A DNA stretch of 64,000 nt from Isoetes taiwanensis. Taxonomy: Eukaryota > Streptophyta > Lycopodiopsida > Isoetales > Isoetaceae. Below are positions 8,584-43,514 of the stretch, piece by piece. The stretch covers positions 62,001 to 126,000 of the forward strand of contig JAJEKV010000125.1 of assembly GCA_021234155.1 (NCBI GenBank), given 5' to 3'. The position numbers and the translations under genes are program-made. The notes beneath the pieces were generated by a model. It had not been told where the DNA came from and searched no databases. It saw only the letters and a program-made list of their open reading frames with translations. How positions within the stretch are numbered: position 1 is the first letter of the stretch; the number at the start of each line of letters is the position of its first letter.

Positions 8584-9792
8584 ATGGCTATGGCGATGGC
8601 CTCGTTAAGCAGCTCCATGTCGGGGCTCTCTTTAGGTTCCGGATTTTCATCGAGCAGTTTCGTGGGCTCCTCATTGCCGCAGCCACAATTTCCTTCGTTA
8701 AAGAGCACGGTATTGTCCGCTTGGTCCATTCAAAGGCCCGTTTTGAAGAAAATTTTCTGGATTTGCTGATAGTTTTTTGTTTCCCGTTGAATGCAGGGCG
8801 TGAATCCAATTGTCAGAATGCTGGTACGCAATTTTATCTGTTTACGAATGCCTCATTACATAGATTCCGGCAATGTGTTGAATTTTTTTGATGATCATCG
8901 TGCTAGTTAATCAGGAAAATACTGCAAAATTTATGCTTTAATAAGTATGTATGCGAGTGTAAAAATCATTCTCGATGTTATACCAGCTCAGTAATCAAGC
9001 GTCTTTCTATTTGAGAGGGAAACTCATGCAAATAGCTGCCTCATTAATAATAATCAAGGCCATATAGCATGTATTCTAGTACTAAAAACTTTTAGAACTG
9101 GCCACATGATATCGAACAATTTCCACAGAGGTAAGTTGTAGTAGATAGCTAAGGTCAGGTATTATGCTGATATAGTTAATGTTTCTTTTTCCAGCTTAGG
9201 AAGTGGGAGCTGAAGAAGTTTAAAGACCCTGTGAAGATGCATGTGAAGGTTGGAGACACAATTAAAGTTATAGCAGGATCTGACAAGGGAAAGATCAGCG
9301 AAGTACTGAGAATATATCATAAAAGAAGCAAAGTTCTGGTAAAGGATGTTAACATCAGGACAAAGCATGTGAAGGGGAAAGAAAAGGGAGAAAGTGGCCA
9401 GATTGTTCAGGTATCGAGTTGTATAATTCATACGCTTAGTTATATTTTATTTGAAGTCTTCTTTGAAGTTATGTTAATTGAGGTTTGCTCTGAAGTATAC
9501 AAGCATTACCAAATTGTGTTATTTGGGATTACCAAATTGTGTTATTTGGGTGTTTGTTGTCATCTTTTGATCTTCCATACTGATTTGCATAGTGGCGTTT
9601 CAGGTTGAATTACCTGTGCATAGCTCTAATGTTATGCTGTACTCAAAGACAGCAAAAGTGACAAGCAGAGTGGGCCATAAAACCTTAGAAGATGGAACCA
9701 AGGTACGATATCTAATTAAGACTGGAGAAGTGCTTGATAGTGCAGAACAATGGAAAAAGGTACACAAGGAAAAGGAGAAGAAAAAGGAGTAG
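8584..9792 (+). CDS. RPL24: Plastid 50S ribosomal protein L24 precursor, nuclear encoded
   Basis: Four exons join in phase to 186 codons including the stop: 8584-8709, 8797-8823, 9195-9410 and 9604-9792. The first 45-50 residues are rich in Ser, Gly and Ala with almost no acidic residues, as expected for a chloroplast transit peptide. The mature part starts near [12 protein letters not shown]. It has the KOW motif [20 protein letters not shown] at residues about 66-86, then [20 protein letters not shown] and [20 protein letters not shown], all typical of the bL24 family and close to the Arabidopsis plastid protein, which is about 198 aa. L24 binds 23S rRNA early in assembly of the large plastid subunit. 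Exon 2 is only 27 bp and the first intron about 87 bp, so the transit-peptide junction is the least certain part. Confidence 0.92.
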
Positions 9793-20245: not shown

Positions 20246-20386
20246 CTATACAACAATTACCTGCTCCGTTGTTCCATTCAATTGTCTTGATCCAACCACA
20301 TGCTCATTTTCTCCATCGTCTGCCCCCTCACCTGCTCTTGGACAAAGCACAGGCACAAATATATTTCAGTCTTTTGCTTCGGTAGG
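20246..20386 (+). pseudogene. LHT-like amino acid transporter exon, left part (split by MULE)
   Basis: After a GTGGCAG acceptor, the frame runs to NIFQSFASVG and is then cut by the MULE terminus. The reading continues on the far side of the element at 31089 with QIAFALAGHNVVLEIQ. The intact block ...VGQIAFAxAGHNVVLEIQ is characteristic of lysine/histidine transporter-like (LHT, amino acid/auxin permease) proteins, in which the same place reads ALGxVAFAYAGHNVVLEIQ. The last nine bases are one copy of the MULE target duplication. The insertion is within an exon, so this allele cannot make the protein in this form. Confidence 0.75.
20378..20386. repeat. 9-bp target site duplication, left (TTCGGTAGG)
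   Basis: TTCGGTAGG immediately precedes the left TIR, and the identical nine bases follow the right TIR at 31080-31088. A 9-bp duplication is the hallmark of the Mutator superfamily, and its identity suggests the insertion is not ancient. Confidence 0.95.
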
Positions 20387-20645
20387 GGAAGTCCGTATAT
20401 CTCAAGCGGGATCTGGTTAATGTGGCCAGATTTCCCGTTATCAGCCACTCATTCCCGACATCCCCATCGATGGGCATGGGCTTCAGCCGCCATACCCCAT
20501 TCATGGGGCAGGGGTTCCGGATGCCCATGCGAAGTCCGCGAAGGGGATATGTATATTCCATGCTGCTTGCCGTGCGATCCATCCATCCCCATTAAGAACT
20601 GCAACCTGCCTGCCCACCGTACCTGCCCAAGTCACTTGAATCATT
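20387..20645 (+). repeat. MULE left terminal inverted repeat
   Basis: The outer 57 bases are identical, or nearly so, to the reverse complement of 31023-31079. Similarity continues with small gaps through CATTCATGGGGCAGG, ATTCCATGCT and GCAACCTGCC to TCATT at about 20645. It contains GGTTAATGTGGCCA at 20415-20428. Related MULE TIRs carry the transposase-binding site in about this position (bases 25-56 in maize Mu). Confidence 0.93.
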
Positions 20646-20814
20646 AGCGTCCTCTTCCTGAAATGGATAGTTCAGAGCAAAATCTTTCAACCGCTTCCGC
20701 ATCAGACAGTGAAATGCCTTGCCGTGGAAGAAATTCGCTTTGGATGAGAATTTCAGAAATCCCCTTCTACCCATTCCCCTTCCGGGACTTGAATTCGTCG
20801 GGTTGTTGTAGGAG

Positions 20815-20850
20815 ATGGCGGCCGACGTGACCGATCCGGAGGTCGAGAAG
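20815..20850 (+). CDS. Possible first coding exon, gene unknown
   Basis: A GC-rich leader precedes ATG 20815, giving MAADVTDPEVEK and then GTAAGC, a good donor. The composition and start context look like the first exon of an ordinary host gene. Position between the TIR and the transposase suggests it may be a captured fragment, as in Pack-MULEs. No second exon was identified. Confidence 0.3.
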
Positions 20851-21179
20851 GTAAGCTTTGAATTGTTTGCTTTTCATTTCTTTCCGGAAAACGCTGTAAG
20901 CAGCAAATTATCTCGAATTACAGATCCTCCCCATTCAAGATCCTCCCCCAGGCCCGTTTTCAAGGAAGGATCTGACATGGGAAATGGAAACTCACCACAC
21001 AGTCCCAAAGAGTGGCTCTGTTCTTTGTTCCTTCTTTGCTATATTCCAAATAATGAGTTTGAGACTTCATCTTGGGGGGGCGAGAAATATCCGGGTTTAA
21101 TACTACATTTTATAAGCAATGGTCGGTCAAGAGAGAGCGGAGAGGCAAGCTGGCGTTAGCGAGCATGCCTATCGAAGAT

Positions 21180-21495
21180 CGTGAGGTCGGTTAATGGGGT
21201 TAATGTGGCCATACCCAAGCTCTTAAATTTGGCGTGGGTTGGTAGTGGTGGTAAGTTTAGGAAAGGGTGGTAGTGTTTGAACTGAGTGATGGTTAATGTG
21301 GCCATAGTCTGTTGCCTCAGGCATTAGCGGTGGTTTAATAAGTGGTTAATGTGGCTTTCGATTGTAGTGGTTAATGTGGCCTTTAGAAGTTGATAATGTG
21401 GCCATAGTTATTGTAGGGCCCTAAGTGGTGGTTAATGTGGTTAATGTGGACTTACTTAGTAATAGTGGTTAATGTGGCCCTATTATGGTAGTTAA
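21180..21495 (+). repeat. Sparse subterminal copies of the GGTTAATGTGG motif
   Basis: Seven or more irregularly spaced copies of GGTTAATGTGG(CC) or close variants lie here, all in the same orientation as in the left TIR, between the TIR and the transposase. They link the TIR word to the dense arrays further in. Confidence 0.85.
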
Positions 21496-21639
21496 TTAAT
21501 GGCTTGTTAGTGCATATATGTTTGAATGTTTCACACGAATTGAAGTGTGGCTTTTTGTTTTAGTTACCACTTTGTGCCTATGGGCCAAAAGATCTCTAAA
21601 CAACGTCGTGAAGTGAAGGAGAAAACAACCAAAGCTATG

Positions 21640-23270
21640 GTTCTTTGAAGCAAAGAGGATTGACCCATCATACTCAAAGAGACAGAGGGGAATACGAGCA
21701 TCAAGAGAGGGTGTAGGTGCCATTTTACGACGAAGCAATTGTATTTGAATCGAATGCACCAAAATAACCTTTCATGAGATGGAACACATTGACACGGAAG
21801 GCAAAGTATGTCATGGTGTTAATGATCACGAATGTGCGAAGACCGAGGCACGAACTAGCTCCTTGGTTATCAAAGGAGAAGAAAGATTGGGCCAGGAATC
21901 GGTTGATGAGAATCACAACCCACGGGAGGTATCTGAGGCGGCATGAAGAGCAATGGGCTCTAAAGAAGAAGATGGATCCGAATAATGTGAAGAATAGAGA
22001 TCAATTCCTTCACATGGATGATCTCTACAATTTGTCTAGGAAGATAGCATTGGACACTTGGATGTTACACGAGGGGCGTTGCTTTGAGTGTAAGGATGTG
22101 GGTAGGATTGCACCCGAGAATCGGTGTTCTTGTACCAAGAAGGTGTACCATTTACTCTAGGGATAATCACTCCCTTTCGGATGAAGATTCTCTTAGAACA
22201 TGGCAAGAATGATCTTTGTAGCAATGGACTCAACTTTCAAGACAAGCGACCATTGCTATAGCACGTACACCTTGCTAGTATCGATGGTCATGGAAATGGT
22301 GTACCCGTTGCTTGGGTTCTCCACGTCTAGCCCGGTGAGTAAGAGGACATCCGACCTTGGCTCTTTGCATTGAAGAATCACATCCATCTTTGTGGATCCC
22401 ACTTGGCAACCCTCTTGTTTTATTGTTGATGATGCCAAAGCGAGATTAATGCATTGGAAAAGGTTTGGCCTAATTCTAGAATACAATTGTGCATTTGGCA
22501 TGTGAGGAGAAATTGGATGAAAATGCTCTTGAAGCATGTGAAGAACAAGAAGGTTAGAGGGGAGATGTTTAAGGACCTTGGCCACATAATGTATAACACA
22601 CATGTGGAAGCGGATGGAAGATTTGGTAAGGATTATGTGGATGCTTGTGAGAGGGAAGCTTTGAGGCTATTGGATGAGTTCAAGGAGAAATACAAATCTT
22701 GGAAGAGGGTTGTTAAGTACATGAACAGGACTTGGACTAAGAACATCACCACTTGGATCATTGCTACAAGAATCTATCCTCATACCAACCAAGAGACAAA
22801 TGCGGCTATAGAGGCTTATCACAACCAAATGAAGAGAAAGCTAGGGGTTTCGAAGCACGCCTTGAGAGGTAGGAGGATTGATTGGTTGATCTACATGCTC
22901 ACTTGTAGATTGGAAACACACCTTCTTTATGACAGGTTCAAGAAGGATGAGGGTTTCAAAGTGAATAAGAGAGCAGGAGCACATAGTTGAGACAAAGCAA
23001 TTATAGGGGCACGTGTCATTTCGATGATGAATTTGTTAGATGGTTGAACTTCAAAGAAGGGAGGGCAGAAGTGTGGAGTCAAAATATGGATGCATGGGAT
23101 GCTAGCCAGAGAGGCTATCCCTACCTTGTGGATGTTGCCCATGAGCACTTTGGTCATCCTGCGGATCGCCCTTGGGGTGAAAAGGTAACATTTGCAAACA
23201 CCAGGTCAAAGTGATCCAAATGATGGCCAAGTATAGTGAGGAGGACATTTTAAGGGTTTGTGGAACATTG
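21640..23270 (+). pseudogene. MULE transposase (MuDR type) with SWIM remnant, frameshifted
   Basis: Reading across frames gives, in order: an N-terminal piece like plant MuDR proteins (GCRCHFTTKQLYLNRMHQN near 21710), RHELAPWLSKEKKDWARNRL, the first catalytic block AMDSTFKTSDHCYSTYTLLV (about 22225) with GHGNGVPVAWVLHV, the second block CFIVDDAKA (about 22420), RIQLCIWHVRRNW (the C-x2-H region, about 22475), TNAAIEAYHNQMKRKLG (about 22800), and CKHQVKVIQMMAKYSEEDIL near 23200, the distal part of a SWIM zinc finger. MULE transposases cut and paste DNA at the element's TIRs. At least three frame changes (near 21770, 22160-22450 and 23190) and internal stops break the protein, so it is inactive unless introns remove some of them, which I do not see. 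Confidence 0.9.
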
Positions 23271-23848
23271 CATGGTTCTCAAAGGTGGCGGTTTGGAGAA
23301 CTTGAGGGTATTTGGAGAGGCATACGATGATGGTTTTCTTGATAACCGGGCACCATCTAGTCGGAGGATACTTGCACATTGGTGACGAGTTGGAGCATGA
23401 CAATGGCGAGGAGAAGATTGTACCTGAGGATGGCATTGGTGAGGAGAAGATTTCCCCCACCACAAGAATTGAGAGTAGCATAAATGCGAGCATGGCACGC
23501 ATTAGGGAGACCATATCTAGTAGCCCACAAGTTGCTTTGGAGGCAGATTTCCTCCTACGGGAGCTTAGTTTGAAGTTGGAGAGATTGACCACTTGCAAGT
23601 TAGACATTTGTTCTTTGCACCCAGTCTACCCATCGTGGAGGACTTCAATGGAAAAACATTGGTGAGGCCAGTTCCATTCGTGGAGTGTCGGAAGAGGCAA
23701 AAGAAGCTTGTTGGTTCTAGTGTGTTTTCGCGAGAGTGTGAAGGGCATCTTCAAGAGTGAAGGTTGTGGCCAAACAAACTCATGTCTTTTATAAAGTTGT
23801 GTCTCTTTTATAAATGCAATGTAGAACCAACCTTGCCCCCAAAAAAAA
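23271..23848 (+). other. Transposase downstream region, ends in an A run
   Basis: Remnant frames (for example FLLRELSLKLERLTTC near 23550) may be the C-terminal part of the MULE protein. The stretch AACCAACCTTGCCCCCAAAAAAAAAAA at 23827-23848 resembles the sequence before the A run near 56845-56860, so a small retroposon 3' end may have landed here. The array starts directly afterwards. Confidence 0.4.
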
Positions 23849-25245
23849 AAATGTGGCCACATGAAGTGTTGGCAACATTAACCAAATTGGGTTAATGTGG
23901 GCACATGAAGTCTTGGCCACATTAACCAGATTGGGTTAATGAGGCCACGTGAAGTCTTGGCCACATTTACCAGATTGGGTTAATGTGTCCACATGAAGTC
24001 TTGGCCACATTAACCAGATTGGGTTAATGTGGCCACAAGAAGTCTTGTCCACATTAAGCAGTTGGGTTAATGTGGCCACGTGAGAAGTCTTGGCCACATT
24101 TACCAAATTGGGTTAATGTGGCCACATGAAGTCTTGGCCACATTAAACAGATTGGGTTAATGTGGCCACAAGAAGTCTTGTCCACATTAACCAGATTGGG
24201 TTAATGTGGCCACGTGAAGTCTTGGCCACATTTACCAAATTGGGTTAATGTGGCCACATGAAGTCTTGGCCACATTAAACAGATTGGGTTAATGTGGCCA
24301 CAAGAAGTCTTGTCCACATTAACCAGATTGGGTTAATGTGGCCATGGCCAGGTTTAGCCACATTCAACAAATTGGGTTAATGTGGCGACATGAAGTGTTG
24401 ACCACATTAACCCATTTTGGTTAATGTGGCCACGTGAAGTCTTGGCCACATTTACCAAATTGGGTTAATGTGGCCACATGAAGTCTTGGCCACATTAACC
24501 AGATTGGGTTAATGTGGCCACAAGAAGTCTTGTCCACATTAACCAGATTGGGTTAATGTGGCCATGGCCAGGTTTAGCCACATTCAACAAATTGGGTTAA
24601 TGTGGCGACATGAAGTGTTGACCACATTAACCCATTTTGGTTAATGTGGCCACGTGAAGTCTTGGCCACATTTACCAAATTGGGTTAATGTGGTCACGTG
24701 AAGTCTTGGCCACATTTACCAAATTGGGTTAATGTGGCCACATGAAGTCTTGGCCACATTAACCAGATTGGGTTAATATGGCCATGGCCAGGTTTAGCCA
24801 CATTCAACAAATTGGGTTAATGTGGCGACATGAAGTGTTGACCACATTAACCCATTTTGGTTAATGTGGCCAGATGAAGTCTTGGCCACATTAACCAGAT
24901 TGGGTTAATGTGGCCACAAGTAGTCTTGTCCACATTAACCAGATTGGGTTAATGTGGCCACGTGAAGTCTTGGCCACATTTACCAAATTGGGTTAATGTG
25001 GCCACATGAAGTCTTGGCCACATTAACCAGATTGGGTTAATGTGGCCATGGCCAGGTTTAGCCACATTCAACAAATTGGGTTAATGTGGCGACATGAAGT
25101 GTTGACCACATTAACCCATTTTGGTTAATGTGGCCACATGAAGTCTTGTCCACATTAACCAGATTGGGTTAATGTGGCCACGTGAAGTCTTGGCCACATT
25201 TACCAAATTGGGTTAATGTGGCCACATGAAGTCTTGGCCACATTT
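23849..25245. repeat. Left array: hairpin-type satellite, about 44-bp unit
   Basis: A typical unit reads GGGTTAATGTGGCCACATGA, then AGTCTTGGCCACATTAACC, then AGATT. Each unit thus contains the TIR word and its reverse complement separated by about 10 bases and can fold on itself. Units alternate in a higher-order pattern: the variant containing GGCCATGGCCAGGTTTAGCC recurs at about 24340, 24560, 24779 and 25046, giving a period of about 220 bp for the first three. The array borders the transposase remnant on the left and AT-rich sequence on the right. Confidence 0.95.
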
Positions 25246-25249
25246 AATA

Positions 25250-25340
25250 TTCAATGGTTGGTTAATGATTAATGTTCAATGGTTGATACTCAATGGTTGG
25301 TATTCAAATGATTTATGTTCAATGGTTGATATTCAATGGT
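25250..25340 (+). repeat. Short TTCAATGGTTGATA repeats
   Basis: Several copies of (A)TTCAATGGTTGATA follow the left array. The same word recurs at about 28065-28150, just after the right array, and near 29320 and 29745, so it is a second small repeat family inside the MULE. Confidence 0.75.
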
Positions 25341-25492
25341 TGATATTCAAAGGTTGTAAACGTTTACAACATTTTTAGTGAAGCAGCATTTATAGTACAA
25401 CATTTCTGTGTACCCCAAACCCTGTGAATCCTAAAAACCCTGTGAATTGCTTTACAGTTATAGACGTTCACAACATTTTTAGTGAAGCAGGA

Positions 25493-25845
25493 ACCAAATT
25501 GAGTCTGAATTCAAAAGTTTTCAGTCTGTATTTCAGAAAATTTGCCCAGAGGGCTTTACATCTAAATGCCGAACTCACAATTTACTTGAGCCCGGAGGCT
25601 TGAAATCAGAGCCCGAAGGCGAAGGCTTTACAAGAGAAAAAAAACGTTCGAAAAGGCCCGGAGGCCACCAAATTGAGTCTGAATTCAAAAGTTTTCAGTC
25701 TGTATTTCAGAAAATTTGCCGAGAGGGCTTTACATATAAACGCCGAACTCACAATTTACTTCAGCCCGGAGGCTTGAAATCAGAGGCCGAAGGCGAAGGC
25801 TTTACAAGAGAAAAAAAAAGTTCAAAAAAGCCCGGAGGCCTGCAT
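25493..25845 (+). repeat. Tandem duplication, about 176-bp unit
   Basis: Two copies of a unit containing CCAAATTGAGTCTGAATTCA, TTTCAGAAAATTTGCC and GCCCGGAGGCTTGAAATCAG lie head to tail, differing at scattered bases. An open frame (25600-25965) reads through with the repeated peptide EGEGFTREKK, but I have no evidence that it is translated. Confidence 0.85.
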
Positions 25846-25906
25846 GTACAAGAAAAAAACAGGGAGCCCAGCATGTACATTCCTAAACAAAAGGAGGCCC
25901 AAGCTT

Positions 25907-26340
25907 TCACTCTTCTTCTTCCTCTTCTGCATCATCTACAGGTCACGAAACGATTAGAAAATTGAAATGTAAATGAACAAAATTCAAACTTCAAAACTAC
26001 CTTTCAGCCAGAGGAGCCACTCCTCGAAATCCTCCTCTTCATCCTCTGCGGAATCTGCATCCTCTTCATCTTCCTCTGCTTCCTCCGACGAAGACCAGAC
26101 GTTGTCTTCAGGAGATATCCCGCCCTCAAGTTGGGCCGTGAAGAATTCCTGGCTACACAGAGACTCTTCTTCCTCCTCTGATTCGGAATCAGAGGAGGAA
26201 GAGGATGACCACGTATCCACGAGGCTCGCAAAAACCTCAGCCAGGGGTGGGAATTCCACCCGAGGCTCTGTCCGAGGTCTCTTAGAAGAGACCTCGGGTT
26301 CTTCTCCGAAGGCAACAGCGGCAGCGGCAGATCTCTTCAT
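25907..26340 (-). CDS. Acidic Ser/Glu-rich nuclear-type protein, two exons
   Basis: On the minus strand, exon 1 runs 26340-26001 and exon 2 runs 25935-25907. The donor AAAG|GTAGTT and the acceptor CCTGTAG keep the frame, and the protein ends DDAEEEEEE. The protein is about 123 aa. An N-terminal basic patch (SSKRPRTEPR) resembles a nuclear localisation signal. It is followed by PPLAEVFASLVDTW and by long Ser and Asp/Glu runs. A CATATATATG box lies just upstream, at about 26400-26409. I recognise no family. Because the gene sits between the two arrays inside the MULE, it may be an element-encoded accessory protein or a captured gene. The agreement of splice phase with an open frame argues for a real gene. 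Confidence 0.5.
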
Positions 26341-26397
26341 GTTCGGGCAGGGCAGAGGGCAGAGGAAAAAAAAATTGGGGAAGAATGAAACCTTCGC

Positions 26398-26412
26398 GGG
26401 CATATATATGCG
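26398..26412 (-). promoter_or_regulatory. TATA-like box upstream of the acidic gene
   Basis: CATATATATG lies about 60 bp before the ATG of the acidic-protein gene on the minus strand, at a plausible distance for a TATA box with a short leader. Confidence 0.35.
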
Positions 26413-26969
26413 AATTAATACGATAAATCAGAAATTATTTCGTACACCGAATTTAATTATTATTATCCCATAGATTCCTAAAAATCATTATTTCGTACGC
26501 CGAATTTATTAATTATTATCCCATATAATCCTATATATCATTACCAAGGTACACTCCATGCCCCGAAAAGTAGACAATTAGACTCGTAATTAAAAAGTAG
26601 ACCATGGTCCAATATTCTAATAGTGAGAGCGCGTTCGAATGTCATTCAATTATTCTTAGTCATGTTCATGAAAAATTGGAGGGGTGCACTTTGAAGAAAT
26701 AACCATTGGATTTAGAATATGACATTAACATTTGTTCCACTACAATGGCGGAGTTTGATAATGGTAGCATCATCATTTTGAAATGATAATTGTAATAATA
26801 AAATGATGTGCATCATTACTCATTGAAGAAAAGGTCACTACACTAGCAAATTAGTAATGTTTAAGGGTATGCTTAAGGGTATCCCTGATGCTTCGGGCTA
26901 TGCTGCAGGTTGTGTTTAAAGCATAAAAGTAAGTTCAAAACTTTAAATGCCATCATTACATATAAACCT
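26410..26969. other. AT-rich spacer in the MULE
   Basis: No gene is seen. It contains a short duplication: TTATTTCGTACNCCGAATTTA occurs at about 26433-26454 and again at 26489-26510, each followed by TTATTATCCCATA. Confidence 0.5.
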
Positions 26970-27965
26970 ATTGACCCTATGGCCACATTAACCCAAGCCC
27001 ACATTTACCCAAGACCACATTAACCCATGGCCACATTAACATTAAGGCCCATTAACCCAAGGCCACATTAACCCATGGCCACATTAACCCATGGCCACAT
27101 TAACCCAAGGCCACATTAACCCATGGCCACATTAACCCATGGCCACATTAACCCATGACCACATTGACCCTATGGCCACATTAACCCATGGGCCACATTA
27201 ACCCAAGGGCACATCAACCCTATGGCCACATCAACCCAAGACCTCATTAAGCCCATGGCCACATTAACCCATGACCACATTAACCCAAGGCCACATTAAC
27301 CCAAGGGCACATTAAGCCATGGCCACATTAACCCATGGCCACATTAACCCATGACCACATTAACCAGAAGGCCACATTAACCCTATGGCCACATTAACCC
27401 TATGGCCACATTAACCCATGGCCCATTAACCCATGGGCCACATTAACCCAAGGGCACATCAACCCTATGGCCACATCAACCCAAGACCTCATTAAGCACA
27501 TGGCCACATTAACCCATGACCACATTAACCCAAGGCCACATCAACCCAAGACCTCATTAAGCCCATGGCCACATTAACCCATGACCACATTAACCCAAGG
27601 CCACATTAACCCAAGGCCACATTAACCCATGGGCACATTAACCCTATGGCCACATTAACCCTATGGCCACATTAACCCTATGGCCACATTAACCCATGGC
27701 CAATGACCACATTAACCCAAGGCCACATTAACCCAAGTCCACATTGACCCATGGCCCATTGACCCATGACCACATTGACCCAAGGCCACATTAACCCATG
27801 ACCACATTAACCCAGGGCCACATTAACCCATGGGCATATCAACACTATGGCCACATCAACCCAAGACCTCATTAACCCATGGCCACATTAACCCAAGGGC
27901 CACATTAACCCAAGACCACATAAACCCATGGCCACATTAACCCATGGCCACATTAACCCATGACC
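26970..27965 (-). repeat. Right array: unidirectional TGGCCACATTAACCCA satellite
   Basis: Dozens of head-to-tail copies of (T/A)GGCCACATTAACCCA with a period of about 15-16 bp, with variants such as GACCTCATTAAGCCC and GGGCACATCAACCC. Essentially all copies have the orientation of the right TIR, which is the reverse complement of the left TIR word. Blocks such as GGGCACATCAACCCTATGG recur, showing local unequal duplication. Confidence 0.95.
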
Positions 27966-28283
27966 CATGGCTCACGTCTCAATTTCATCCACATTAGGGT
28001 AATTGAATGTTCCATGCTATTTTAAGATAGAATTGTGAAAATTTGCCAAGGCTTCCATTAATGGTTAATATTCAATGGTTAATTGGTTGATATTCAATGG
28101 TTGGTTAAATGGTTCGTTAATGTGGTTAATATTCAATGGTTGGTTAATGATTCAATCAACACGTGGTTAAAAACGTGCGTGGATTGCATACGAAACTTTC
28201 AGGGTAAAAAAGGAACAGTTTCCTGATCCTCCCGTTCGATCTAGTGTCAGGCGACAAGGTTCTTGCAGGCGCCTCTTCTTCCA

Positions 28284-28574
28284 ATGGCCATAACTCGAAG
28301 CCGATGTCCAATCCTTCGAATGTTGAAGGATCTGGCCTCTTCTGCAGGACCTAAGCCCGCCAGTTCTAGGCGCAGGTCTTCGGCGGTGAAATCAGCACCC
28401 CTTACGCCACTCAGGAGGAAGGCAAAGGTATGCAAGAGAAAGCACACGAAGCCAGCACCAGCACTAGCACATCCCAATGAGGAAGCCAGCACTAGCAGGG
28501 AGCCAGAAGCAAAGAAGATGAAGATCCTATGGCCCTATGGCCACATTAACCCCACGAGCCTTTGGCCACATTAA
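28284..28574 (+). CDS. Basic, nuclear-type short protein frame running into the array
   Basis: From ATG 28284 the frame encodes MAITRSRCPILRMLKDLASS, then Ser/Arg/Lys-rich sequence with RRKAKVCKRKHTKP, a likely nuclear localisation signal, and EASTSREPEAKKMKI. The last codons are made of the satellite (reading LWPYGHINPTSLWPH), so the original C-terminus has been replaced or the frame ends in the array. A GC-rich leader precedes it. No family is recognised. Together with the acidic minus-strand gene it may be a second element-encoded protein, but that is inference. Confidence 0.4.
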   Translation: MAITRSRCPILRMLKDLASSAGPKPASSRRRSSAVKSAPLTPLRRKAKVCKRKHTKPAPALAHPNEEASTSREPEAKKMKILWPYGHINPTSLWPH

Positions 28575-28952
28575 CCCTATGGCCCCTAGGGCCACATTAA
28601 CCCTATGGCCACATTAACCCTAGGGCCACATTAACCCTATGACCACATTAACCCATGACCCTATGATCTATGGCCACATTAACCATATGGCCACATTAAC
28701 CCTAGGGCCACATTAACCCATGACCCTATGACCCTATGGCCACATTAACCCCACGAGCCTTTGGCCACATTAACCCTATGGCCACATTAACCCAAGGCCA
28801 CATTAACCTATGGCCACATAAACCCATGGCCACATGGCCACATTAACACAGTGTCTACATTAACCCTATGGCCACATTAACCCTATGGCCACATTAACCC
28901 AAGGGTACATTAACCCATGGCCACATTAACCTATGGCCACATAAACCCATGG
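28520..28952 (-). repeat. Right array, second block
   Basis: Continues the TGGCCACATTAACCCTA satellite after the basic frame, again mainly in the right-TIR orientation. A segment with CCCACGAGCCTTTGGCC is duplicated at about 28552 and 28751. Confidence 0.93.
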
Positions 28953-29840
28953 CCACATGGCCACATTAACACAGTGTCCACATTAACCCATTGGCCACAT
29001 TAATCCATTGGCCACATTAACCCATTGCCCATATTAACCCATTGCCCACATTAACCCTTTGGCCACATTAACCACCATGGGTTAATGTGGCCATGGCTTA
29101 ATGTGGCCAGTTTAGGCCATGGCTACATTAAACCATGGCCACATTAACCCATGGCCACATTAAACCATAGTGGTTAATGTGGCCACCTTAAGTCATGGCT
29201 ACATTAACCATGGCCATATTAAACGATAATGGTTAATGTGACCACTTTAGCCCATGGCCACATTAACCCTAAGTGTTAGTGGCTTTTCCTTTAAAGTGTG
29301 CTACCATGGTATAAAGTGTGGTATTCAATGGTTGGCACATGACCACACTAACCTATTGCCACATGGCCACATTAACACAGTGTCCACATTAACCCATTGG
29401 CCACATTAATCCATTGGCCACATTAACCCATTGCCCACATTAACCCATTGCCCACATTAACCCTTTGGCCACATTAACCACCATGGGTTAATGTGGCCAT
29501 GGCTTAATGTGGCCAATGGTTAATGTGGCCAGTTTAGGCCATGGCTACATTAAACCATGGCCACATTAACCCATGGCCACATTAAACCATAGTGGTTAAT
29601 GTGGCCACCTTAAGTCATGGCTACATTAACCATGGCCACATTAAACGATAATGGTTAATGTGACCACTTTAGCCCATGGCCACATTAACCCTAAGTGTTA
29701 GTGGCTTTTCCTTTAAAGTGTGCTACCATGGTATAAAGTGTGGTATTCAATGGTTGGCACATGACCACACTAACCTATTGCCACATTAATCTATGGCCAC
29801 ATTAACCCATGGCCACCTTAACCCATTTTGGTTAATGTGG
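28953..29840. repeat. Two 406-bp repeats with the motif in both orientations
   Basis: A unit starting CCACATGGCCACATTAACAC at 28953 repeats at 29359 (period 406), with only small differences. The second copy has an extra AATGGTTAATGTGGCC and ends near 29784. Each unit carries the motif in both orientations (for example ACCACCATGGGTTAATGTGG) plus a non-motif tail, GTGTTAGTGGCTTTTCCTTT. It is the youngest-looking part of the arrays. Confidence 0.92.
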
Positions 29841-30114
29841 CCACTGTAGTTTAGTCAACATACAATTACAACAGTAATAGAGTTCAATAGTATGATATAA
29901 TATATTTCAAAGGTAATACAAGGCTAATGGTAATTCAATCCGAAACAAACCCGGATCCTGCATGGCCCCCTGCCCACGCTCTCGACGTTAACTTCAGGGC
30001 GGATATGGACTCCCACCACAACATGTGGTCGAGGACTTCGCAAAGACTTGCATCAAACCCAAGAAGACATCTTGATGAGGCGCTTCTTCTCCAACTTTGC
30101 GTGTCTCATACAGT
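29841..30114. other. Non-repetitive MULE interior
   Basis: Unique sequence between the arrays and the spliced minus-strand gene. It probably includes the 3' UTR of that gene. No further gene is seen. Confidence 0.4.
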
Positions 30115-30816
30115 TTAACAAAACAGGGCTTGAGTGTTGCCCTGCCACAGGAAGTCCAAAGCCAGCAATTTCTTCAATGCCTTGGCTTGGATAATGCGCA
30201 TTTTCAACTCAGCTATCATTGCTCCCTCTGTCGGCCTATCATTGTCATCTATGTAATGCCGGGGCTGGTTCAAGTTGATCTCACCTTTCTCCACTCTCTC
30301 TGTATAAATAAAACGTGTAGCTACAATCAAATCACAACCACAAATAAACAATTCATATGAAGGAAAAAAAGCAGATGCTCACTTGTAAATGTGTGGATAC
30401 TGTTATTCTCTGCAAGAATTGTTCCAACGTCCTCCTGAAGCCAATTCAAGTGAACCACGACATCTTCAATAGTGTGAACATTGGGGACACTGCACTCAGC
30501 AAGCTGTTGCTGGTCCTCACCATGTTTCTTCGATTGCTTGATCTCAACTGAATTGAAACCCAATGAATTGCCTTAAACCTTAACCCACGACATCCCATAT
30601 ATACCCTAAACCCATGACCGTTGTAGTGACCGTTGTGGTGGACATTTTGAAAATCTATGGCCACATTAATCCCCTCGATTGATGGCCACATTAACCATGG
30701 GTGACCATGTGACATTACCTGAAATGGAAGTGAAATAAAATCGTCTAGTTCGCTTGGTATGGCAACGTACGTGGCCGGGCCGTTGAAGTTGAAGGGACAG
30801 AAAGCGATGATATGAC
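30115..30816 (-). CDS. Spliced unknown gene or gene fragment inside the MULE
   Basis: On the minus strand, exons 30816-30719, 30536-30383 and 30299-30115 join in phase, with donors GTAATG and GTGAGC and acceptors CTGCAG, ATCAAG and ATACAG. The open frame includes GPATYVAIPSELDDFISLPF, then VPNVHTIEDVVVHLNWLQED, then RHYIDDNDRPTEGAMIAELK, and ends ALDFLWQGNTQALFC. The first exon opens in mid-codon, so an upstream exon is missing or lies in the TIR. I recognise no family. Lying next to the right TIR, it may be a captured host fragment (Pack-MULE style) or an element gene transcribed inward from the TIR. The 30536 acceptor is the weakest call. Confidence 0.42.
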
Positions 30817-30828
30817 TGCAGGACAGAA

Positions 30829-31079
30829 ATGATTCGGTTCAAGGGACTTCTGCAGGTACGGTTGGCAGGTTGCAGTTAATGCGGATTTGGCATGGCATGG
30901 CAAGTAGCATGGGATATCCCGCATGGCTGCTCTCGCATGGCATCCTGCCCCATGAATGGGTTAATGCGCCAAAACCCCATGGCCATCAATCGGATGGATG
31001 GCGGGCATGGCAATGTAGTGGTTGATAACGGGAAATCTGGCCACATTAACCAGATCCCGCTTGAGATATACGGACTTCC
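30829..31079 (-). repeat. MULE right terminal inverted repeat
   Basis: Reverse complement of the left TIR over about 250 bp. The outermost 57 bases are conserved, and the interior has diverged with extra copies of short CATGGC words. It contains TGGCCACATTAACC at 31038-31051, that is bases 29-42 from the end. Confidence 0.93.
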
Positions 31080-31088
31080 TTCGGTAGG
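31080..31088. repeat. 9-bp target site duplication, right (TTCGGTAGG)
   Basis: Identical to 20378-20386, directly after the right TIR. Confidence 0.95.
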
Positions 31089-31760
31089 CCAGATTGCATT
31101 TGCTTTAGCAGGGCATAACGTTGTTTTAGAGATCCAAGTCACAATGCCACTGAACAGAAACCTTCTAAGGTTGCCATGTGGAGGGGTGGCCTTGTTGCTC
31201 ATATAATTATTGCATCATGCTACTTGCTGACTGCCACTATATGTGATATTCTTAAGAAGCATGCCAACATGTTGCTCCTCCTCAGCTTTCCAACGCCACT
31301 TGTTACAACGGCAACTCTAATGCTAGTCTTCCACATGGTTGAGAGCTATCAGGTATGTTAAATAGTAAGTTTTGCACAATTTCATAGATAAGAAGGAAGA
31401 AAAGGGGTTCTGATGATCTCAATCAAAACATGCAGATACATGCAATGCCGCTTTTTAACAAGCTTGAAGAATTCATTGAGAAGAGTATACATGAGAAACC
31501 AAAACTTTCCCTATCAAGACTACGATCTGAGCAAATGTTCTTGACGATGCAATGAACGGGACAGTGACTGTTCGGTCCCTGCCCCTTGGCTGGGTTTGTC
31601 ATGACAAGGTAGTCTTTTATAAAAGTAATACATTGGCATTACTTTCTAGAATTACGTCATATCATAAATATAGGTTGAAAAGCAAGGCGCCCACTTCTAC
31701 AGAGTAACAATCTCACCAGCACAGGCGCTGGCTGGGGTAGTTGAAGGATTCTATTAAGCA
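31089..31760 (+). pseudogene. LHT-like amino acid transporter, right part, frameshifted
   Basis: QIAFALAGHNVVLEIQVTMP continues the exon cut by the MULE. A one-base frame change near 31150 is then needed to read EQKPSKVAMWRG, then LVAHIIIASCYLLTATI, and ATLMLVFHMVESYQ up to the donor at 31353. The next exon starts at 31436 (IHAMPLFNKLEEFIEKSIHE) and meets a stop at about 31553. All these blocks match LHT transporters (KPSKxxMWRGVVVAY, YAMPVFDMLE), plasma-membrane carriers of amino acids, but the middle helices are degraded. The locus was therefore probably decaying independently of the MULE. Two later open stretches (31552-31608, LPLGWVCHDK, and 31674-31757, FYRVTISPAQALAGVVEGFY) have splice-like borders but do not resemble the transporter. 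Confidence 0.8.
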
Positions 31761-38066: not shown

Positions 38067-38852
38067 TGTTAGAAATTAAAGGTTCAGATGATATAAGAAA
38101 GATAAGACCATATAATGGTTAAGACCAGCTTTCAAGGTTTTTATTTAAATGCATGCGCAAAGCAGAGTTACTAGACAAACTGTGAGTGTATATAAGAGCA
38201 GTTGAGCAGGTTCTTGAAGAGTAAACATTGTTGAAGAATATTATCTCAAGGGTTGCAGCATTACAAGGTTGCAATAGGTATAATGGTTGCAACCTAGGTA
38301 TATTCAAAGGGGGAATATATTATCAATGGTCGAGATATTATTCAATGGTTTGAATATGGCTTTTAAACAGAAGCATTCCTGTGGGATAATTCGAAGCAGA
38401 TGAATTCCCAGCTTGGAATGCAAATCCTCTGCTGAAACCGTCGGAGGATAGAAGATAAATCAAGAAGAATGCATTTAACATTTTATCTGGTTTTGCAGAA
38501 GCGGTGGATTTGGCCAACTAGGGAAGCACGGCAGAGCTACAGTGATTGTTTCGATCCTATAGCTACAGTGTTTCGTTTAATATTTCTGCTACAGTATATT
38601 TTATGAATGACCATGGTTTAGCTCGTTTACTTTGTAAATAAATAAAGGGAAAAATTGTTAGATCTATCAAGAGATGAGTGACCACATCTTGGCTCTCTTG
38701 ATTAAACTTCAATCTTGTTGAGATTGTGAGTAGATCTATCAATACAAGTTGTACTTGAGTTGTGATTTGTCTTCTACTTGTGCTAGTAGAACTGAAGGAA
38801 ATTGTTAGTATAACTTGTTTATAATATCTAGTAGACTCAATAAATTCTATCA
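38067..38852 (+). repeat. Copia left LTR
   Basis: Begins TGTTAGAAATTAAAGG and ends AATTCTATCA. It is matched along its length by 46332-47139. Confidence 0.93.
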
Positions 38853-38866
38853 TTGGTATCAGAGCC
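38853..38866 (+). promoter_or_regulatory. Primer-binding site (initiator tRNA-Met)
   Basis: TGGTATCAGAGC at 38854-38865, one base after the LTR, is the classic plant Copia site complementary to the 3' end of initiator tRNA-Met. Confidence 0.95.
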
Positions 38867-38882
38867 AGGTTGCTTGGTTACT

Positions 38883-41800
38883 ATGTCTACTAGATTTGCA
38901 GCTAACCTGTTAAACCAGATCGAAGTATTCAAGGGTGACACAGGCTTTCAAGTCTGGAAGGAGGGTATTAAATCTGTTCTTGAGTTTGAGAACTTGTGGT
39001 ATTTAATAGATGGCAGTCAAGCCAGAGTCACAGCAGCGGCAAGTTCTGGAGGCTCCTGCCCTGGTGTTAGTACAAGTGGACCAAGTGGAGAGGCTGCAGG
39101 GTCTACTCAATCAGGGGGGTCTCCTACTTTAGCAAGAAGTGTACCAGATGAAGCAAAGGTAAAGGAGGCTCAAGCAATTATTCCGAGCAAGGTTGGTACT
39201 GCCTTAAAGTTGAGATTGAGAGGGATGAAACCACATGAGATGTGGCAATATTTGGTAAGCCAACATCTCGATCTAGCCAGCAAATTTTGCTTGCTATCTA
39301 TCTTGATGCTTGGCCCAAACTATGGAAACGAGCTTTTCATCTCGCATGTGGCTGGCTTTTATGGTCAATCTGGAAGAGAAGGAGGTTGTTTATCTTTAAG
39401 GGCGTAGATTGTTCTTCAGAAAGTGCAAAATAAAATTGTTATGGTTTACAATTGTTCTTCTCTTGATCAAGAGAAGAAAGTACTGATCTGGCATACTTAC
39501 CTTCAGATTCATTCTTTTGCATAGGCAGGTGGTTGTGCTCAGTTGGATCGGTTTGTCTACTGGGGTTATAATCCTGTCTTTGCATTTTATGTTGCTCTAG
39601 TTCTTACTTGGTGAATAAAGCTTGTCGTCCTTCAAAAAAAAAAAAGCCAATATGAAATTAAAAGTTCTTCTCAAATTGACTTGTTAGAACAACAATTGAG
39701 GAAATTAAAATTATTTGAGAAAGATAATCTGACAGATTTTCTAGAAAAGTTTGACTCAATTGTTGCAGATCTAGAAGGGGCTGGAAATGTTCTGAGTGAT
39801 CAATATCAAATTCTAGCATTGTCCAGAGCAGTTTCTCATAATACACACCTGGCAACATTGATTAGAAACATAGCAACTTCAAAAGAACATGCTGTGAGGA
39901 TTATTAGAACTGAGTTTGAGCAGACTAAAGGTGTGCAAGATGATGAAGAACATTCTGCTGAGTTGTTGTATGCAGGGAAGCAAAGGAGAAGGGGAAGCTC
40001 GAATTTTGGAAGAGGAGAAAGATTGGGACCATGTTTTACATGTAACCAATATGGACACTTGAAGTCTGAATGTCCAAATGAAGGTAAAATATTTAAATGT
40101 TTTAATTGTGATGGAAAAGGGCATCTAGCTGTGAACTGTCCAAACCCAAAAGGTATTGGAGAAAAAGAAAAAGGTCGAGGCAAAAGTTTTACAAGAGGTC
40201 GAGGAAGATTCAAAGGAGGCTCTAGTGTCAACATTGTTGAAGATACAAAGGTGGAGGAAGAGAATCCAGATGACACTATTGAGGTAACAAACCTGCTTAG
40301 TATTTCTCAAAATGTGGATAAATTTGACAGCAAGTTTCTTATTATAGATTCAGGAACAGAAAAGACAGTAGTACATGATGTTAAATTATTAAAAGAATGC
40401 AAAAGAAGAGGTGGTCAGGTTCAGCTTGGAGATGGTGGAGTATAGGAAATTAAAGACACAGGGGTGTTAGAAATTTTTGATTTACAAGGAAAAAGTGTGA
40501 TGCTTAAGGAAGTCTTGTGTGTTCCAAATTTAGTGAGGAATTTGATATCTGTTTGCCAGCTTGTTGATCTTGGTTTCAAAGTTGTATTTGAGAAACTTGA
40601 GTGCAAAGTATATTACAATAATATTTTGAGATTCATTGGAAGGAGGATTGGTAACTTATTTGGATTTAAAAAAGAAAAAGATCCATGTATCAATATTATT
40701 GAATTACCAACCAAGGAAACTTGACATACTAGATTATGCCATACAAATATGAAAAACATAGATTTGCTGGCCAAAAACAAGCTTATAACAGCCAAGGAAG
40801 ATGAAAGAAAAGGGTTATGTGTTGGTTGCCAACTTGGCAAGCAAACAAGATTGCCATTTAAGAAATTTGCTAAAAGGGAAAAAGGAGTGTTGGATTTAAT
40901 CCATACAGATTTGTGTGGACCAATTAATGTTATAAGTATGAGACAAAACAAATACTTTATAACATTTATAGATGATTTTAGCAGGAAAACAAAATGCTAT
41001 CTTCTGAAAAACAAAGACCAAGCTTTTGATGCTCTAAAATTGTTTATAGCAGATGTTGAACTAGAAACTGGAAGGAAAGTTAAATGTATAAGGTCTGACA
41101 GGGGAGGAGAATATTTGTCAGGTGAATTCAAATTGTTTTGTGCTAAACATGGAAAGACAGTTGACATGCAGGTATTGACCTCAACAAAATGGGGTGGCAG
41201 AAAGAAAGAATAGAACATTGTTAAAGGCTGTCAGATCAATGTTGAAATTTTCAGGGTTACCTAATTTCTTGTGGGATGAAGCTGTCAGAACTGCAGTCTA
41301 TATTCAAAACATGCTGCCCTCAATAAGCACAAAAGGAACAATACCACATATGCTGTGGTCAGGTAAAGTTCCAAACTATGAGCATTTAAGGTCGTATGGA
41401 TGTCTGGCTTTTGTTCATGTACCTGAAGAGATAAGGAAAAAACTTGATGACCGTGCTTGTATAGCTTACTTAGTAGGGTATGATGCCAACTCAAAAGGAT
41501 ATAGGCTATATGATCCTTTGCACAGAAAAATACTGATCAGTAGAGATGTAGTGTTTGATGAGGAAAAATATTACAAAGCAATTCCCAATGTAAATAAAAA
41601 CGTTGCTGACATAGATGTGAAAAGTGCTGACACTGTTGTTGCAGAAGATATTGGACAAACCTCTCATGTCTTACAGGATCAACAGTTACAGGATCAACAA
41701 ATGTTTGATGATAGTGATAATGAAGATAATTCAGGGGATGAACAACAAGAAGGCTCTGATCAAACTGAAGAAATTGAGCCTGAAGCTGAGCATGAAGAAT

Positions 41801-43514
41801 TGGTGGAACAAGCACAAGTAATAGCACCTGAAAGAAAACAAAGGAAGAAAAGAAGAACAGAAGCTCAAGTTTTAGCTGATGAAGCTAAATTGCAAACAGA
41901 GTTATATGGCAGAAGAGAAACTGGAAAAAGCAAAAGGCATGAAATCTTTGAAGTTAATTCTGTATTTGACATTTTGGTTCTAGAAACAGATAATGTTCCA
42001 GCCATATTTGATGAAGCTATGCAAGGAAAGAATTCTCATAATTGGATTCAAGCAATGAAAGATGAGATGCATGCTTTAAAAAAAACAGAAACCTACACAG
42101 TGGTAGAAGCTCCTCAAAACAAAAATGTTGTAGGCAATAAATGGATATTTAGAGTTAAACCAGGAGTGGATGGCAAATCAAGAAAATTTAAAGCAAGACT
42201 TGTAGCACAGGACTTTACTCAGAAAAAAGGATTGGATTTTGATGAGACATTTTCACCTCTGGTAAAAATTAATAGCTTGAGAATATTGTTATCGATTGCA
42301 AATGCTTATAATCTTGAAATTCGTCATATGGATGTGAGCACAGCATTTTTGAATGCAGAATTAGAGGAGGAGATTTATCTTAAACCTGAAGAAGAAGATG
42401 GTAAGGTCTGGAGGTTAAACAGAGTAGTTTATGGATTAAGACAAGCACCAAAGGAGTGGTATAAGTGTATGGACAATTATCTCTTGGAGCAGGGTTTTCA
42501 AAAATTGCTATGTGATGGAAATTTATACAGATATGTAGATTACGAACATTGGTGCATTATTGATTTGTATGTGGATAACAATATTATGGTTGCAAACAAT
42601 GCATCAATATTGATTCATCGCAAAGAATTGTTAAAGAAAAGGTTTCAAATGACAGATTTGGGAGAATTAAAAAGATTTTTGGGAATTGAAGTGATTCAAG
42701 ATCGAGTAAACAAACTGTTGACTTTGAACCGAGAAACACAAATTGTCAACATGCTTAAAAAATTTAACATGAGTGATTGCAACATTGCAAACACTCCACT
42801 GGTATCAGGCCATAAAATATCAGCCTTGATATGTCCACAATTGCAGAAAAGAAGCAAATGGAGAAGATTCCATACAGATCCTTAATTGGATGTTTGTCTT
42901 ACCTAGCAAACTGCACAAGGCCTGATATAGCATTTGGTGTCAATTTATTAAGCAGATACAACAACAATCCTGGTAAAGAACATTGGGTAGCTACTAAGAG
43001 AATTTTGAGATATCTTAAAGGAACATTAAAGATTGGAATTATGTATAATTCAAATGACCTAACTCTGAAAGCATATTGTGATTCTGATTGGGCTGGAGAT
43101 TTGGACCAAAGAAAATCAACCTCAAGTTATATTATACTTCTGGGAGGAGCTTTAGTGGCATGGAAGTGCAAAAAACAAAGCAGTATAGCTCTTTCTAGTG
43201 CTGAGGCTGAATATAATGCAGCTGCACTTCTTACAAAAGAGTTAATATGGGAGAGAAGACTGTTGGCGGAACTAAATTATGACAAACAGGTCCAACACAA
43301 ATCTTATGTGACAATACAAGTTGTATTGCTATGACAAAGAACCCAGTGCTTCATGAAAGATCTAAACAACATTGAGATGCAGGTTCATTTTATTCGAGAT
43401 ATGGTTGAGAAAAAGTTTGTGCAACTAACTTATGTTAGAACAGTGGATCAATTTGCAGACATTCTAACTAAAGCATTATCTGTTGGAAGATTTCAGGAAC
43501 TCAGGAATATGTAG
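38883..43514 (+). pseudogene. Copia gag-pol polyprotein, degenerate
   Basis: Gag starts at ATG 38883, is interrupted at 39264-39645 by a LINE, and resumes at 39648 (QYEIKSSSQIDLLEQQLRKL). It carries two CCHC zinc knuckles (CFTCNQYGHLKSEC and CFNCDGKGHLAVNC, about 40030-40140). Protease has IDSGTEKTVVHD (about 40350), where DSGA or DSGT is normal. Integrase has HTDLCGP, SDRGGEY and, after a frame change near 41180, GVAERKNR (its D, D and E). RT covers 42120-42820, with YVDN at about 42575 in place of the catalytic YVDD. RNase H contains YCDSDWAGD and SSAEAEYNA. Frame breaks lie near 41180, 42830, 43310 and 43372, with stops at 40443 and 40724. The last pol frame ends at TAG 43512-43514. The protein cannot be made in this form. 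Confidence 0.93.
39264..39645 (+). mobile_element. 5'-truncated LINE 3' end inserted in Copia gag
   Basis: The insertion is flanked by AAGCCAA on both sides (39257-39263 and 39644-39650, partly within the A run) and ends in a 12-base A run. Its only frame reads FHLACGWLLWSIWKRRRLFI, matching the W-S-I-W-x2-R terminus of L1 ORF2 proteins. Removing it restores the gag frame across the junction. It is therefore younger than the Copia insertion. Confidence 0.88.

Follow-up and report, generated by a model that had tools for sequence, protein, structure and literature searches.

In a 64,000-nucleotide stretch of the Isoetes taiwanensis genome (GenBank assembly GCA_021234155.1, contig JAJEKV010000125.1, positions 62,001 to 126,000; the whole stretch is hereafter the window), a Mutator-like element (MULE) of 10,693 bp at window positions 20387-31079 carries internal arrays of a 14-bp word that also lies in its terminal inverted repeats (TIRs). 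The array word is the TIR word in this family and also in several relatives, which have other words. This correspondence suggests that one changing DNA-binding protein may read both TIR and array words, with the transposase as the most economical candidate. On the sequence evidence, the word is probably bound by a protein, the transposase being the likeliest, and the arrays would offer it extra binding platforms. The family itself is best regarded as a recently active plant Mutator-like family in which TIR bases 29-42 form a putative protein-binding word.

The TIRs of the window element are identical across 57 bases, as befits a MULE with terminal inverted repeats, and GGTTAATGTGGCCA makes up bases 29-42 of both its left and right ends. 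The element is flanked by a perfect 9-bp target site duplication (TSD), TTCGGTAGG. The original prediction, made from the letters of the window, had named both features, and both were borne out, with the exact word starting at TIR base 29 on each side. TSDs in the 9-11-bp range of MULEs were found in the window element, in the same-family copy C413, and in all ten further long elements (10/10). A MULE domain piece at window 22433-22987 matches PF10551 weakly (E 8e-5, 23.4 bits, under the cut-off of 27.6), and the domain is firmly over the cut-off in C413 (E 6.9e-9, 36.5 bits) and in two relatives, C974 (E 5.2e-19) and C1033 (E 1.2e-16). A 185-aa transposase piece compared with a large protein set gave 42 candidates, all of them weaker than E 0.001, and no solved-structure relative of the 731-aa C974 transposase was found. 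Besides the transposase, the window element holds up to three open reading frames (ORFs) with relatives in other copies. Its features, with window coordinates, are:

20378-20386, no strand: left 9-bp TSD TTCGGTAGG, perfect
20387-20443, + strand: left TIR, 57 bases the same as the right TIR
20415-20428, + strand: word GGTTAATGTGGCCA, TIR bases 29-42
21198-21480, + strand: small word cluster A0 in the interval between TIR and transposase, 8 words at up to 2 mismatches
About 21607-23751, + strand: broken transposase frame, recovered in pieces by tblastn of the C974 transposase against this stretch
23850-25244, no strand: array A1, 31.7 copies of a 44-bp unit that is an inverted word pair
25984-26427, - strand: acidic ORF with counterparts in C413 and C921, no Pfam match
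26970-27962, - strand: array A2, the word as 16-bp direct repeats
28245-28574, + strand: basic ORF with related pieces in C921 and C196, no Pfam match
28533-29073, - strand: array A3, 16/17-bp direct repeats
29075-29850, no strand: array A4, the word in both orientations in mixed units
29986-30613, - strand: right-hand gene remains, related to a 241-aa ORF of sister copy C41 (that ORF has no Pfam match)
30658-30696, - strand: right-side word pair (two words)
31023-31079, - strand: right TIR, with the word inside at 31038-31051
31080-31088, no strand: right 9-bp TSD TTCGGTAGG, perfect

The exact word occurs 31 times on the + strand and 47 times on the - strand of the window (78 in total). At up to one mismatch there are 160 copies, all within 20415-31051, where 100 dinucleotide shuffles average 0.05; at three mismatches there are 214 matches, 207 within the element and 7 beyond. 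Four array spans, whose limits were set by hand from word positions and repeat units, together cover 3,992 bp, which agrees with the earlier estimate of about 4 kb and more than a hundred internal copies. Repeat units are unlike between arrays (a 44-bp inverted word pair at 23850-25244, 16/17-bp direct repeats at 26970-27962 and 28584-29073, then mixed units), and the word is what all window arrays have in common. These are short tandem-motif arrays in non-coding regions, of the type known from VANDAL elements. TIR identity stops at base 57 and the arrays are internal, so the foldback-type, Muta1-like arrangement of short tandem repeats inside long end TIRs is not present; nor are whole TIRs duplicated within the element, which has no TIR28 core beyond its two ends at up to 9 mismatches. 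Another short repeat, resembling ATTCAATGGTTG, lies between word arrays at window 25247-25356 and 28058-28156.

Across the 1.66-Gb assembly the exact word occurs 3343 times (1741 + 1602), and its backward pattern 0 + 1 times. Contexts were read in 15 regions covering the first 100 listed of these positions, which lie on low-numbered contigs. Of these 100, 49 fall within elements, spread over 11 contigs, whose TIR can be recognised; another 30, at 10.8-16.4 kb of C196, adjoin transposase pieces 90-94% identical in DNA to the window. One array (C196:68669-69727) accounts for 19, and neither a TIR nor a transposase piece was found near it in the 84 kb read; the last 2 are single words. In all, 79 of the 100 are in TIR-bearing elements or adjoin transposase remains, and among the listed positions the word does not form the long, transposon-independent arrays of a genomic satellite, which leaves an earlier suggestion of satellite birth unsupported. 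C196 (L010-L011) holds a family relic split by other DNA, with transposase pieces at 3.3-10.7 kb, the arrays at 10.8-16.4 kb, and the further array at 68.7-69.7 kb. One of the two single words (L022, near 3060) is adjoined by the ATTCAATGGTTG-like repeat.

A search with the TIR recovered 16 inverted pairs, 8.6-28.4 kb long (40 of 289 candidates scored), and all 12 of those checked have 9-bp TSDs, in C1052 after a one-base boundary shift. In C413 and C921 the arrays are placed as in the window element, and words are also in arrays in sister C41 and in the distant C151 element. Words at up to one mismatch number 160 in the window, 93 in C413, 99 in C921 (its last part unread), 29 in C41, and 27 in C151. 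Eight short copies of about 0.36-0.45 kb have 2-6 words each, mostly near one end, and in three of them (L012, L016, L019) the second word lies 24 bases past the first. Arrays built from the element's own TIR word, as the original prediction had them, are accordingly a feature of the family and not a chance pick-up. The 18-base TIR core GTATATCTCAAGCGGGAT occurs 119 times genome-wide (backward control 0), 71 of them with the exact word behind it in the expected position; 12 of the remaining 48 were read, and 11 of these have the word at 0-1 mismatch, four of them shifted by one base. The twelfth, on C1031, lacks the word, a case of the kind (same TIR, no word) that had been named in advance as evidence to the contrary. 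On C1055 (G000:C1055:2264548-2287531), three co-oriented TIR cores at 2264555, 2269624, and 2274698 precede one inverted end at 2287507, a layout of nested or tandem ends.

Matches to the transposase piece numbered 151, with identities from 100 down to 52% (150 of the 1433 candidates were scored). From these, seven relatives were hand-picked for a spread of identity (83-53%) and, as a rule, an open frame; the first-listed match, C930, a copy with an intact transposase frame, was left out. For two of them 4.9 kb of sequence was read; for the other five, reading covered 0.9 kb upstream and 0.8 kb downstream. Arrays were compared in equal 801-nt stretches, each scored by the best count of any TIR 14-mer, and the TIR start of C1106 was placed by manual alignment (the best automatic placement had 14 mismatches). 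Clear arrays of the relative's own TIR word, just 3′ of the transposase, were found in four of the seven. In C974 (75% identity) the TIR word is GGTGTTTCTGGACA and the array word GGTGTTTCTGGCCA, and the window word is absent at 3 mismatches across 4.9 kb. In C1033 (58%) the TIR has GTCATGTTTAAACCA and the array, about 47 copies of 22-bp units, has GTCATGTTTGAACCA; the corresponding pairs are TGACATGTTTTAACC and TGACATGTTATAGCC in C1038 (56%), and GGTTTATCCGGACA and GGTTTATCTGGACA in C1045 (53%). The C974-type TIR is a true TIR: scoring 40 of 223 candidates gave five inverted pairs, three of them bracketing a transposase match. Only the left end was seen in the remaining six relatives.

Counts at up to 3 mismatches in 801 nt are 41 for the window, 24 for C1038, 19 for C1033, 14 for C1045, and 8 for C974, and no first-order Markov shuffle (60 each) exceeds 3. 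Of the 40,320 ways of assigning the eight TIRs to the eight stretches, 8 reach the observed score with 2 mismatches allowed and 4 with 3. The most repeated TIR 14-mer begins at base 24-31 in 6 of the 8 elements; in C1038 it is a second word copy at base 46-47, with 21 matches for base 25. Six of the 7 relatives have a second TIR-word copy 21-24 bp further in, and C1033 has its second copy inverted at 28 bp; at most 7 of 2000 shuffles achieve as much (the word starts of C1033 and C1038 were taken from the TIR 14-mer scan). The C1045 stretch (C1045:7730994-7731794, L051) has a second repeated motif, the palindromic GTATAAATAC, with 13 counts in 801 nt; this motif is absent from the TIR stretch read.

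Word columns of the 44-bp array are conserved at 0.937 versus 0.838 for the spacers, and between aligned copies the words diverge by 7.5-9.3% versus 10.8-17.2% for spacers, lower in all four comparisons, with a classing of sites that favours this outcome. The information content of the word was set aside as proof of function, being biased by the gathering of sites for their likeness to the word, and none of the tests of within-array conservation is decisive on function.

Several observations weigh against a protein that reads both TIR and arrays. Only four of the seven relatives are clear, with 801 nt read in the remaining three: C1106 (67%) has no own-word array in its stretch (count 1), and counts at up to 3 mismatches are weak in C1025 (83%), with 4, and C1060 (69%), with 2, the latter within its shuffles and the former dropping to a single copy when 2 mismatches are allowed. 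Some words resemble one another: the C1045 array is matched at 2 mismatches 13 times by the TIR word of C974 and 14 times by that of C1025, and the C1033 array is matched by the TIR word of C1038 (13), so that independent word types number perhaps three or four. The window family has no second TIR copy at the position seen in the relatives (0 of 4 ends). The word frame of the 44-bp array ranks just 6th of 44 rotations in a fixed-phase test, and whole arrays diverge faster than unique parts.

A role for the transposase is nonetheless the reading that we favour. The transposase is a candidate reader because the word sits at a fixed place in the TIR, like the MURA site of maize Mu, a conserved 32-bp TIR motif (PMC3310237). 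Transposase binding is strengthened as an idea because the different TIR words of the relatives recur in their own arrays, and because the second word copy lies 21-28 bp inward in 7/7 relatives. Short copies without genes bear extra words, and a cis role in mobility is therefore favoured. Under such a mechanism, the inner part of a short TIR (bases 29-42) would be read by a protein, most likely the element's own transposase, and tens to more than 100 extra words, in non-coding arrays that mostly lie directly 3′ of the transposase gene, would serve as a multivalent platform by which transposase, or a partner sharing its DNA-binding specificity, becomes locally more abundant on cognate copies. 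The benefit of the arrays would lie in gathering the reading protein there, and when the word changes in a lineage, TIR and arrays would change together. A bolder version, to which we give limited credence, has the transposase both cut at the TIR and coat its own element via the arrays, keeping it open or unsilenced in a VANC-like self-recognition. If this were true, arrays and TIR would co-evolve as a species-recognition code separating MULE lineages in one genome.

The main rival to transposase binding, itself unlikely, is VANC-like anti-silencing, in which a second protein encoded by the element, and not the transposase, would bind the word and strip silencing marks off cognate copies. VANDAL arrays are bound by VANC in vivo and in vitro, with motif and protein co-evolving (PMC5735166; PMC10398659), and besides the transposase the window element holds as many as three ORFs with relatives in other copies. 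However, a Pfam search found no match for these three ORFs (the C413 ORF was not part of it), VANDALs are described as non-TIR MULEs (PMC6446971), and accounts of them place the motif in non-coding internal regions, not in a TIR; in the present family very short copies without genes carry extra words too. DUF1985, the VANC domain, had 0 matches genome-wide, yet a control search likewise gave 0 in 14 genomes, so its absence is unproven.

A neutral origin appears improbable. In it, slippage and unequal crossing-over would expand subterminal words into arrays that bring no advantage, and arrays would be seeded anew in each lineage from its current TIR. This origin would accommodate the variable word number between copies (29-160 at up to one mismatch) and an array turnover faster than that of unique sequence, and the second word near the first in the relatives could seed slippage; it sits less well with arrays that recur at the same place, 3′ of the transposase, in lineages that are separate and use different words, and with the lower divergence of words than spacers in 4/4 comparisons, although site classing favours the latter. 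Chance capture of a host satellite is very improbable: the 3343 genome-wide occurrences and the C196 array standing apart from any TIR or transposase piece in 84 kb would suit it, but 49 of the 100 listed positions are in TIR-bearing elements, 30 lie beside transposase pieces 90-94% identical, and the relatives hold arrays of their own words.

Joining the flanks of the element (window 20300-20386 and 31080-31340) gives a reading of SFASVGQIAFALAGHNVVLEIQ, an exon-like insertion site. The gene that hosts the element resembles, we assume, an amino-acid transporter, and this transporter-like gene looks broken at other places too. Elsewhere in the window, 9180-9605 encodes the plastid ribosomal protein uL24 (best match uL24c, E 3e-22), and the window is therefore plant nuclear DNA; ORFs at 38844-43331 presumably belong to a Ty1/copia-like retrotransposon, judging from zinc-knuckle, integrase, and reverse-transcriptase motifs.

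Arrays of motifs in transposons are familiar, but their reader and the driver of their change are hard to identify. In CACTA elements, of another superfamily, a transposase-binding motif occurs many times per element in short subterminal stretches. Among titles and the beginnings of abstracts, with most subscription journals beyond reach, no description was found of a MULE whose TIR word forms internal arrays, and no precedent was found for an array word that equals the TIR word and diverges with it between lineages. The original prediction that nothing of this kind had been described for MULEs was too strong in view of VANDAL/VANC (PMC5735166) and the Aedes MULEs (PMC5225508).

The nearest precedent is the VANDAL/VANC system of Arabidopsis (PMC5735166; PMC10398659), where a short motif is tandemly repeated in the non-coding parts of MULEs and bound by VANC (PMC5735166); the original prediction did not name this system. 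As described there, VANDALs share with the present family a plant MULE lineage, a short tandem motif in non-coding DNA, lineage-specific motifs, and quick array turnover; unlike VANDALs, which are non-TIR elements with a motif read by VANC, the window element has a perfect 57-base TIR and a motif that is its inner TIR word. The Muta1 and Muta5 MULEs of Aedes are reported to have subterminal tandem repeats of 12-15 bp, with 9 copies of a 12- or 15-bp unit, along with TSDs of 8-9 bp and derivative copies variable in repeat number, comparable with the short copies here (PMC5225508). Their repeats lie within long TIRs, whereas here kilobase arrays lie deep inside the element, beyond a 57-base TIR. 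Tandem-long-TIR MULEs of plants likewise have extra TIR material, thought to raise transposase recognition, but by the same account whole TIRs are duplicated once or twice, in contrast to a 14-bp word amplified hundredfold (PMC3310237).

Beyond MULEs, Galileo (P superfamily) offers a likeness in its transposase THAP DNA-binding domain, which binds repeated sites in the tandem repeats of the element, although it belongs to another superfamily and the sites are within long TIRs (PMC3688188). Tetris foldback elements are alike in that transposon repeats expand into arrays; their units are 220 bp and the arrays become genomic satellite, a conversion of which there is little sign here (PMC4079207). 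Tm1, from what its source describes, shares part of the picture (PMC3169594). Set beside these systems, the present elements write the array motif twice, at the cleavage end and at many internal sites, and the several versions in one genome amount to a natural experiment: each transposase has a DNA-binding part that can be matched against the TIR and array word of the same element, so that recognition as the driver of arrays becomes testable. The finding would connect the anti-silencing arrays of VANDALs with ordinary transposase binding sites.

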